From positions 1 through 21,015 of IMG/VR virus record IMGVR_UViG_3300046011_005389: a stretch of 21,015 bases of DNA, one strand, 5' to 3'. Origin of the DNA: a virus. The position numbers and the translations under genes are program-made. Shown piece by piece: positions 1,162 through 12,354 of this stretch. The first letter of the stretch is position 1; each line of letters opens with the position of its first letter. The notes below the pieces were generated by a model, which had not been told where the DNA came from, ran no database searches, and saw only the letters and a list, made by a program, of their open reading frames with translations.

Positions 1162-1310
1162 TACACCTCCAACCGTAGTAGACAGATAAAAGGTGTAATA
1201 GTCTGTCTTAAAACACGTAAACCTAAGTACCCATACAGCAGTGAGTTGGGCTAAGTTATATACAATTCCTCGGAGCTGGGAGTAGAATGCTTAGGAACGT
1301 GTCTTTTATT
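1162..1310 (+). ncRNA. Candidate structured RNA: H-type pseudoknot plus three-way junction
   Basis: The 173-base gap between genes carries nested complementarity. TACACCT (1162-1168) pairs with AGGTGTA (1191-1197). AGACAGA (1180-1186) pairs with TCTGTCT (1202-1208). The two stems interleave, giving a classical H-type pseudoknot of 7+7 perfect pairs. Directly after it, 1213-1218/1297-1302 and 1222-1227/1290-1295 form a 12-pair stem with a 3x1 internal loop. This closes over two hairpins, CCCA/TGGG (1230-1233/1247-1250) and ATTC-CTC/GAG-TA-GAAT (1265-1271/1280-1288). A short T-rich tail (1303-1310) may end the RNA. It matches no riboswitch, ribozyme or phage RNA I know. It could be a free ncRNA or a 5' regulatory leader of the gene at 1330. 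Confidence 0.55.
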
Positions 1311-1329: not shown

Positions 1330-1659
1330 ATGAAATGGTTCAGGAAATTATTTAAGAAAAAGAAAAAGAGTTATCCACAGGATAATAAGTTTAAACTATG
1401 TATTATTGATGAGAAATCAGATTTAATACATGAAGTACTAGGTATTACAGAAGAAAGATGCCGGGAACTAACTGAGCTGTGCATAAAAGCATATGGTGCC
1501 AGTGATATTAAAACAGAATCATATGCTATGGTAGTAGAGCAATGTGTTCATGTTAATGAAGTTGTTATGGCAATCCAAATCTTTGAGAAAGTTTCTCATG
1601 CACAGGCTAAGAAAAGAAGTTTGAGAAATTTAATGGATAATCTATTTAGTGATGAGTGA
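1330..1659 (+). CDS. Unrecognised basic-N-terminus protein, 109 aa
   Basis: The N-terminus is strongly basic (residues 2-14 mostly Lys/Arg with aromatics), followed by an alternating strand/helix region. No known domain is recognised. The basic patch could bind nucleic acid or the membrane surface (inference). The ATG at 1330 lies 20 bases after the T-rich tail of the structured RNA segment, so that RNA may be the gene's leader. The C-terminal codons overlap the next gene by 8 bases (ATGAGTGA), which indicates translational coupling. Confidence 0.75.
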   Translation: MKWFRKLFKKKKKSYPQDNKFKLCIIDEKSDLIHEVLGITEERCRELTELCIKAYGASDIKTESYAMVVEQCVHVNEVVMAIQIFEKVSHAQAKKRSLRNLMDNLFSDE

Positions 1660-8397: not shown

Positions 8398-8807
8398 AAA
8401 AGTTATTATTATTATTGTTGTTGTCAGCAGGTGCAGCACATTCACAAATTGTAGTTGATGAGCCAACTAAAGATAGTGTCATATATTCATTCCCATTAAC
8501 AGTATTGAAATTAGTACACTTTTATGGGGAAACTAATCACTATACTTTCTTTTATAAAAACACCAAGTATCAGTATGTTACTGATATTGATTACATTTCT
8601 TTTGATAACAAAGAAGAAGTTATTCAATTCTTTAATTTACTATTAAAAGTATATGAGTCTGGAGAGTTTACAAGTTTTACACTTGATGAAAAGAGATATC
8701 ATATAGCAAAAAGAATAGGTCAATTAGCAGTGTATGATTCTGATGATTTAAGTGAGTTTTTGATCACTAAGAAAATTATAACCAAAATACTAGAAGCACT
8801 GCAGTAA
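8394..8807 (+). CDS. Exported periplasmic phage protein, 137 aa
   Basis: A textbook signal peptide (MKK, then a Leu run, then Ala-His-Ser before Gln) spans residues 1-17, with cleavage likely before Q18 and no lipobox Cys. The mature part (about 120 aa) is rich in Tyr/Phe and beta strands up to residue 80, then helical and charged. I recall Bacteroidota phage proteins of this general form without known function. Exported early proteins in phages often change the envelope (superinfection exclusion, adsorption block); that role here is an inference. The gene overlaps its predecessor at ATGA. Confidence 0.7.
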   Translation: MKKLLLLLLLSAGAAHSQIVVDEPTKDSVIYSFPLTVLKLVHFYGETNHYTFFYKNTKYQYVTDIDYISFDNKEEVIQFFNLLLKVYESGEFTSFTLDEKRYHIAKRIGQLAVYDSDDLSEFLITKKIITKILEALQ

Positions 8808-11001: not shown

Positions 11002-11411
11002 TGGGTAAAAGAGAAGATAAAGAGCTAAGCAAACTTTGTGTAGCTATTTGTTCTGATCATTATGAGTTGTTAAAGAATGTGGATACTAATATGAGTTATA
11101 CTTTTAACTTATATTCTTCCGGTCCATATCAGGGACAGTATAAAAAGTTTATGTTTTATGCTGAATTAAAGCTTAATAAATTCTTAGGGTTAATTACTGC
11201 TGAGGAAGTAGAAAATGTATATAATATGATGATATCAGAAGATAAGGATAACTTCTATATTGTAATGCAGATAGTCAAACACTATATGAAAGAAAGACAT
11301 GCTAAGTTTGGAGCTTTAATGGATTATAAAGGCTATGACTATGCCCGGCACAATTATTTACAGGAAATTCTGAATCCAGCAGATTTCTTAATTAAATTAG
11401 TAAATAAATGA
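11001..11411 (+). CDS. Unrecognised protein, 136 aa
   Basis: This is a soluble, mostly helical protein with many Tyr, Lys and Met. A Cys at residue 13 and one at 17 do not form a cluster. It has no recognisable domain. The chosen ATG at 11001 overlaps the preceding stop (TAATG); an earlier in-frame start at 10989 would lie within the microprotein gene. The gene overlaps its successor at ATGA. Confidence 0.7.
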   Translation: MGKREDKELSKLCVAICSDHYELLKNVDTNMSYTFNLYSSGPYQGQYKKFMFYAELKLNKFLGLITAEEVENVYNMMISEDKDNFYIVMQIVKHYMKERHAKFGALMDYKGYDYARHNYLQEILNPADFLIKLVNK

Positions 11412-11659
11412 CAGAAGAAGATTTAATAGATTTAGGATTTGATCAGGTGCATATAGCAGATGCTCAAAGTCAGAATGGATATGATTATTATTTTTATCAG
11501 AAAGAAATCTGTGACAATATAGTTTTATATAGCACAGATAGCATTGATGTAGAAGATAACAATTGGATAGTTAAATGTTGGGATATACCAGCAATTAGAA
11601 TAACCTCAAAAGATCATTTTATGCAATTTGTAGAAATGATTGATAATATAACTTGTTAG
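11408..11659 (+). CDS. Unrecognised small protein, 83 aa
   Basis: It begins with a short helix and LGFD, continues with Tyr-rich strands, a central Asn-Trp, and a C-terminal helix with Phe/Met/Ile. This plan ('EDLIDLGF...YYFYQ...NIVLYS...W...FVEMI') resembles a broad class of short phage hypothetical proteins and, weakly, the genes at 10347 and 10613. It overlaps its predecessor (ATGA) and precedes the next ATG by one base. Confidence 0.7.
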   Translation: MTEEDLIDLGFDQVHIADAQSQNGYDYYFYQKEICDNIVLYSTDSIDVEDNNWIVKCWDIPAIRITSKDHFMQFVEMIDNITC

Positions 11660-11660
11660 T

Positions 11661-12035
11661 ATGTTATCAGTTAAATTAGTTAAGAAAGATGGTAAGCTGA
11701 CATATCCTGATGAGAAGTCTAAGTTGGCTTATCAAATCTTTTTGGATAAGATTCCAGAAGGACAGAAAGTAGAAATGTATATTGGTCTAGCAGATGCTGA
11801 CCATAGTGTAGCACAATTGGCAAAAGTGCATGCCTGTATAAGAGAATTAGCCAAAGAATCTGGCTATACTTTTGAAGAAATGAAAGTGTTGATTAAAGAA
11901 AGATCAGGATTATGTTATGAAGCAGGAGAAGTTACAATATGTAAATCATTTGCCGAATGTAGTAAAGATGAATTAGCTTTAGCTATTGAAGCTTGTGTAG
12001 AAGTAGGAAAGATTTATAATATTAATCTTGCTTAG
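11661..12035 (+). CDS. Possible NinB-like recombination protein, 124 aa
   Basis: Strand-rich N-terminus, then a His-containing helix (QLAKVHACIRELAKESGY), a Lys-rich segment, the motif KSFAECSKDEL and a C-terminal helix ending EVGKIYNI. The last two features recall NinB/Orf proteins, phage recombination mediators that help load a strand-exchange protein onto SSB-coated DNA; lambda NinB is of similar length. The identification rests on pattern memory, not on a catalytic residue. The nearby SSB and Sak4-like ATPase make such a role sensible. Its 3' end overlaps the minus-strand gene tail to tail by 14 bases. Confidence 0.4.
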   Translation: MLSVKLVKKDGKLTYPDEKSKLAYQIFLDKIPEGQKVEMYIGLADADHSVAQLAKVHACIRELAKESGYTFEEMKVLIKERSGLCYEAGEVTICKSFAECSKDELALAIEACVEVGKIYNINLA

Positions 12036-12336
12036 GTTCTACATAACCTTCATCACCAGGTTGTAGAACTTCTTTTTCATCATAAAGAGATTTTTCCTTA
12101 GCCACTCTTTCAATTTCAGCAATTAGAAGTGTAGTAGTATAAAAAGCTCTTTCATAATGGCTAAGTTCAGAAAATTGTTTAGTTGTCATATTTCTTAAAG
12201 ATTCTTCTAATTTTGTAGAATCTTTTTCAGAAAGAAATAAATAGGCAGCTAATTCTTTAGCCATTAAATAAAAACCTTTATTTACTTTGATGTCAAATAT
12301 TGCATCATCTTTCATTTCTTTAATTGTGATTGCCAT
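12022..12336 (-). CDS. Lone minus-strand gene, unrecognised protein, 104 aa
   Basis: This is the only convincing gene on the minus strand. The product begins with a strand (MAITIKEM), has a long helical core with Tyr, Phe, Ala and Leu (about 22-85), and ends in a Glu/Asp/Pro tail (PGDEGYVEPKQD). I have a loose memory of crAss-like phage proteins, perhaps from the late structural region, with a similar 'YDEKEVLQPGDEGY' tail, but cannot name a function. The ATG at 12336 is preferred over a TTG at 12357. A Bacteroidota-type promoter box lies just upstream. Its stop overlaps the convergent + gene. In this setting it would be transcribed separately, possibly late. Confidence 0.75.
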   Translation of the reverse strand: MAITIKEMKDDAIFDIKVNKGFYLMAKELAAYLFLSEKDSTKLEESLRNMTTKQFSELSHYERAFYTTTLLIAEIERVAKEKSLYDEKEVLQPGDEGYVEPKQD

Positions 12337-12354
12337 GGTAGTTGATTTTTTTAA

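Follow-up and report, generated by a model that had tools for sequence, protein, structure and literature searches.

Two candidate RNA families from phages, one a covarying three-way junction located mostly among tRNA genes

Introduction

Phage tRNA islands carry large RNAs and ribozymes, the jobs of which are mostly unknown. The purine riboswitch is a three-way junction with two parallel hairpins whose loops pair with each other, and the pistol ribozyme has a helix order in which a hairpin loop pairs downstream and a second helix forms around that pairing. GOLLD and ROOL RNAs often occur near tRNA islands and contain kissing loops (PMC12286853); theta ribozymes, found mainly in Bacteroidota phages, are HDV-like and lie at the 3' ends of phage tRNAs (PMC10879173). 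Searches of the literature on phage tRNA-array RNAs, outside subscription journals, yielded GOLLD/ROOL and theta ribozymes and neither of the two elements reported here.

The window, that is, the whole stretch of DNA analyzed here, is a 21-kb IMG/VR virus fragment (21,015 nt). The original prediction placed in it a single unclassified structured RNA at positions 1162-1310, an interleaved pseudoknot followed by a closed three-way junction. The reported pairing is real, yet the segment consists of two independent modules, PK (about 1157-1209) and B (about 1213-1302). Sequence comparison suggests that these represent two phage RNA families absent from Rfam 15, the family catalog searched, B with strong covariation.

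Results

The DnaB-like helicase encoded in the window has its closest relatives, which share about 31-34% identity with it across most of the protein, in genomes of crAss-like phages from human feces, and the phage, as placed by its helicase, is probably a distant environmental relative of the crAss-like phages. Gene 1330 (1330-1659, plus strand; 109 aa) was assigned to no family, and its relatives' copies are preceded or not by B or PK. A protein homology search of viral contigs with the gene at 127-909 returned zero relatives, PHROGs gave the neighboring genes no name, and no tRNA was recognized in the window or in G003, the record of locus L004. The segment had been described as the only sizeable gap between early genes, which is incorrect: 2299-2444 is likewise intergenic, forming a second gap of about 2299-2445. 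This second gap contains a terminator-like hairpin and is 72 to 95% conserved across many related phages, the conservation being limited to the first ~80 bases in L016, L028, and others. Positions 1-92, upstream of the gene at 127, are 86 to 92% conserved in four other phages (L031, L037, L050, and L157) and are possibly another RNA.

Both predicted 7-bp perfect helices (1162-1168/1191-1197 and 1180-1186/1202-1208) are present, as is the broken stem closing over two hairpins (P1a, 1213-1218/1297-1302; P1b, 1222-1229/1288-1295); these and all features below are on the plus strand. The argument that so much ordered pairing was unlikely to arise by chance did not hold for this sequence taken alone, as nested folding of 1150-1320 gave a z score of only -0.92 (B alone, -1.9; PK alone, -1.4) and interleaved perfect 7+7 helices appeared in 76 of 5000 dinucleotide shuffles. 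Because these single-sequence statistics are unconvincing, the case for structure rests on relatives, and the homologues, whose covariation had been proposed as a check, do covary.

B was examined in an alignment of 57 sequences and, through a covariance model, in one of 101 matches, and the statistics were computed on 93 distinct sequences. On this comparative evidence, B is a three-way junction of about 90 nt in which the two hairpin loops pair together. Pairing was kept in 97.0% of pair cells, versus 83.6% for shuffles and at most 47.0% with slid partners; two-sided changes were found in 17 of 29 pairs, with a covariation score of 0.395 versus 0.148. The closing stem has two-sided changes in 12 of its 14 pairs. 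Hairpin P3 (1230-1233/1247-1250) is 92.5% paired, and both members of its outermost pair on the loop side vary; hairpin P4 (1265-1268/1280-1283) is 99.2% paired, with a C-G pair replaced by U-A in 12 sequences. The strand between the two hairpins, CUAAGUUAKAUACA (1251-1264), and alongside it UAGAA (1283-1287), are nearly invariant, an invariance partly built in through the collection of the set by exact core motifs. In the outer stem, the sequence is at liberty to vary; the core, by contrast, is fixed.

The P3 and P4 loops each carry one kissing strand. The main helix, CAGC (1236-1239) with GCUG (1275-1278), is 100% paired, and the second, GAG (1243-1245) with CUC (1269-1271), is 99.6% paired; the loop-loop helix was absent from the covariance model that aligned the sequences. 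Three of the four main pairs are compensated: CAGC/GCUG becomes CCGC/GCGG in L072 and in the second copy in L070, UUGC/GCAA in L140 and in L195 (a metagenome-bin contig), and CAGU/ACUG in L142. GAG/CUC in L070 reads ACG/CGU by eye; it is misaligned by one column and was left uncounted. The two B copies of L070 (2589-2687 and 2763-2864) are adjacent and differ in their kissing loops, the first having its loop-loop helix fully re-paired.

Three pattern scans yielded 12 distinct versions of PK on about 20 contigs, in phages related to that of the window; L127 to L135 proved to be chance matches to the PK pattern. The original prediction had missed a stem, P0 (UGCG, 1158-1161, with CGUA, 1173-1176), which belongs to the lowest-energy fold, is found in 12 of 12 distinct homologues with G-C/G-U variation, and encloses the 5' strand of helix P1 in its loop. 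P1 (the first of the two 7-bp helices) interleaves with both P0 and P2 and is paired in 97.6% of cells; across the 12 homologues, a single pair varies, by wobble, and there are zero two-sided changes. P2 (1180-1187/1201-1208) is 99% paired, and one of its pairs changes from G-C to A-U in five homologues. P0 adds a second knot, and the fold read from these alignments is doubly interleaved. Across the 12 distinct sequences, 98.7% of pair cells were kept, compared with at most 47.4% with slid partners; shuffles separate poorly because the sequence is so conserved. Covariation is modest, the G-C to A-U change in P2 being the one compensated pair, and we regard the PK fold as likely. Depending on the phage, PK sits between unrelated genes or adjoins tRNAs, lying 5' of tRNA-Arg in L028, L031, and L032, 3' of tRNA-Arg in L025 and L034, 5' of a broken tRNA in L033, and, in L015, 5' of a tRNA-like unit. 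PK makes up another, narrower RNA family of the arrays that contain B.

The view of PK and B as one RNA was not supported, since the two are separate in most genomes. Gene-1330 homologues, used as bait, led to seven loci. In L002, L003, and L006 to L008, PK is followed directly by TTATTTATTAACTAAAAAATGTATGATTATG, which in the window comes after B; B is therefore an extra segment of about 100 nt compared with those phages. L004 has a complete PK ahead of another gene, and the PK copy ahead of B is reduced to its 3' portion, an arrangement which implies that PK and B have been shuffled relative to one another. Four sister records with PK or gene 1330 are B-negative.

A search of IMG/VR with two core patterns returned 98 and then more than 119 stretches, giving at least about 120 distinct B loci after removal of duplicates and of chance matches such as L041, L042, L044, L061, and L074. 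B occurs in uncultivated phage contigs of up to 295 kb. Searches of 50,697 named phage records and of 72,556 plasmids gave no B, and two exact patterns gave 0 and 1 matches in 84,980 prokaryote genomes, the lone match being a metagenome-bin contig; across these collections, B is restricted to phages. It is a single-copy element: each of the 17 larger B-bearing records searched whole (99 to 295 kb, mostly with 10 to 30 tRNA genes each) contains exactly one copy. Two adjacent copies were seen in L070, L088, and L102, each a stretch from a smaller contig. B is located mostly in tRNA arrays. A strict ARAGORN tRNA lies within 1.5 kb at 82 of the approximately 120 listed distinct loci, on the same strand in all 82, and was not found within that distance at about one third of them. 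At 35 loci, a tRNA lies within 15 nt of B; when B was placed at random in the same loci (200 trials), this was so at 14 loci on average and at no more than 26.

Several other RNAs occur in the phages that carry B or PK. The B-bearing contig of L119 has a GOLLD RNA (11113-11519, plus strand) and a tmRNA gene (11933-12340, minus strand), and Rfam searches found freshwater-1 RNA in B-bearing L049 (1382-1443) and L162 (1167-1228). A Hatchet ribozyme match (75 bits; gathering score, 51) lies at 8553-8720 on the minus strand of L015, from a phage of the window's group. At 25 loci, including L035, L036, L046, L053, L056, L057, L068, L070, L073, and L081, we observed tRNA-like units that combine an acceptor stem of Leu type with D and T arms (AGTCAGGTGG...ACGC ... 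AGGTTCGAATCCTGTCCTGACT) and in which inserts of 13 to 119 nt replace the anticodon arm; in none of the 34 distinct units is the D arm followed by an anticodon arm of 5 bp and 7 nt, and ARAGORN calls them tRNAs with odd introns. Three further elements recur in these phages. One, RNA-like and in the same arrays, is TGCTATTGTGGGAGTGACTTACTTCAACCCTC...GGAAAGACAGCATTTTT (L015, L016, L039, L087, L093, L094, L117, L119, L161, and L193); the others, each often immediately 5' of B, are GTGTTGTTCCCTTGAGAAAGGA...ACAACACAGAGG (16 loci, including L019, L036, L039, L049, L053, L068, L070, L081, and L086) and GTGGGAAAGANNNATCCCGAAA...GATCAC (12 loci, including L036, L040, L056, L057, L059, L070, and L121).

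The description of the RNA as unclassified stood. In Rfam 15, neither PK nor B matched a family at the gathering threshold or, on the relevant strand, at E values up to 10; the sole match at that limit was to AfaR on the minus strand (17.6 bits, with 100 needed). Neither module was matched by ARAGORN or by the tRNA and tmRNA families RF00005 and RF00023. Among identities considered for B, a likeness to 5S rRNA strings was dropped, the covariance search giving no 5S match, as was a Ro-binding Y RNA (TROVE protein in just 1 of 21 records); RNA ligase, present in 8 of 21 records, was too inconsistent to serve as a partner.

Discussion

Our results make it rather probable that B is a phage-only free RNA produced from a tRNA-array operon and acting in trans through a fixed junction, most likely in the control or protection of translation, with PK as a second family. 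B would be transcribed within an operon of phage RNAs, in most cases a tRNA array, and probably cut out together with the tRNAs. Pairing between its loops would hold the two hairpins parallel and thereby give the junction the form of a fixed surface or pocket. As a stable RNA acting in trans, B would offer this junction to a protein, a ribonucleoprotein, or a ligand, the most plausible setting being the control or protection of translation by the phage. That B lies mostly among tRNA genes suggests that it is produced by these viruses as a free RNA, one of the two roles initially proposed; its absence from Rfam and the covarying homologues appear to favor this as well, and the presence of GOLLD, freshwater-1, and tmRNA as array neighbors lends further support. 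A role in translation is favored because of the tRNA setting. A related and more tentative reading, to which we give clearly less than an even chance, is that B is an undescribed phage-only class acting in trans, either on translation in the host or on defenses that target tRNA, as one of a set of small RNAs expressed from the arrays that would also include PK, the further recurrent RNAs, and the tRNA-like units with a replaced anticodon arm.

The original prediction had offered, as its other possibility, a regulatory leader of gene 1330, and a cis-acting leader controlling the next gene, either a riboswitch or a protein-binding site, would accord with several features: B ends about 25 nt upstream of the gene 1330 start codon in the window, and its invariant junction resembles a binding pocket in a general layout like that of the purine riboswitch. 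Among the approximately 120 listed loci, however, gene 1330 directly follows B only in the window and L004, and B therefore does not appear to be a leader of this gene. At four other loci a homologue of the gene lies about 242 to 244 nt from B, separated from it by other RNA genes where the sequence was read, and the downstream neighbors of B are otherwise varied, mostly tRNAs or unrelated sequence; there is also no purine riboswitch match at E values up to 10. A free RNA fits better than a leader because the outer stem is free while the core is fixed, tRNA ends are often abutted, and the following gene varies. For PK, which in several phages lies shortly upstream of a start codon, a role in cis may still apply; taken as a whole, leader function is distinctly unlikely. 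We also think it unlikely that the modules are self-cleaving ribozymes, comparable to theta ribozymes, that trim the tRNA array. B adjoins tRNA ends at many loci, much as theta ribozymes act beside phage tRNAs (PMC10879173), the window's phage group includes the Hatchet match in L015, and the interleaved helices of PK come in a pistol-like order. Yet the window gave no match to a ribozyme family, even with E values up to 10 allowed, B often lies away from a tRNA end and has a closing stem that flanks the core on both sides, and PK has neither the third pistol helix nor HDV helix P3.

Similarly small is the chance that B is a decoy that, from its place within the tRNA array, misleads host RNA-targeting defenses such as tRNA nucleases through mimicry. 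Phage tRNAs are reported to counter tRNA-cleaving defenses (PMC10264068, PMC11555353), and tRNA-like units lacking an anticodon arm occur in the same arrays; B itself, however, has no evident tRNA resemblance or tRNA-family match, and no link was found from B to any particular nuclease. That B has no cellular role, being just conserved sequence that recent recombination has carried from phage to phage, is very improbable: the presence/absence junctions and the partial PK copy abutting B in L004 do show shuffling, but the many differing compensatory changes, including those in the kissing helix, require that the RNA fold be under selection.

As a compact, single-copy element of about 90 nt, supported by covariation and present in many different large phages, B is of a size suited to direct structure determination and pull-down, and its natural variants, the compensated kissing loops among them, provide a ready set for mutational tests.

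Among described RNAs, the theta ribozymes are nested double pseudoknots with a P3 helix, a helix order that neither PK nor B has; in PK, only 4 nt (1187-1190) separate the 5' strand of P2 from the 3' strand of P1, where an HDV-like fold has its P3 hairpin. The helix order of PK resembles that of pistol, but PK has no P3 hairpin, with only 4 nt between the 3' strands of P1 and P2, and no family match. B shares with the purine riboswitch a three-way junction with loop-loop pairing and differs from it in core sequence and in not occupying a leader position before a regulated or constant gene. GOLLD and ROOL are, like B, phage RNAs with kissing loops in a tRNA-island setting, but they are large RNA cages of several hundred nucleotides. 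Freshwater-1 (RF02979) is, like B, a small RNA of such phage tRNA arrays; at 62 nt, it has another sequence and fold, and B does not match it. B is phage-only in the collections searched and lies mostly in or beside tRNA arrays on the same strand, and it can be described as a phage tRNA-island small RNA.
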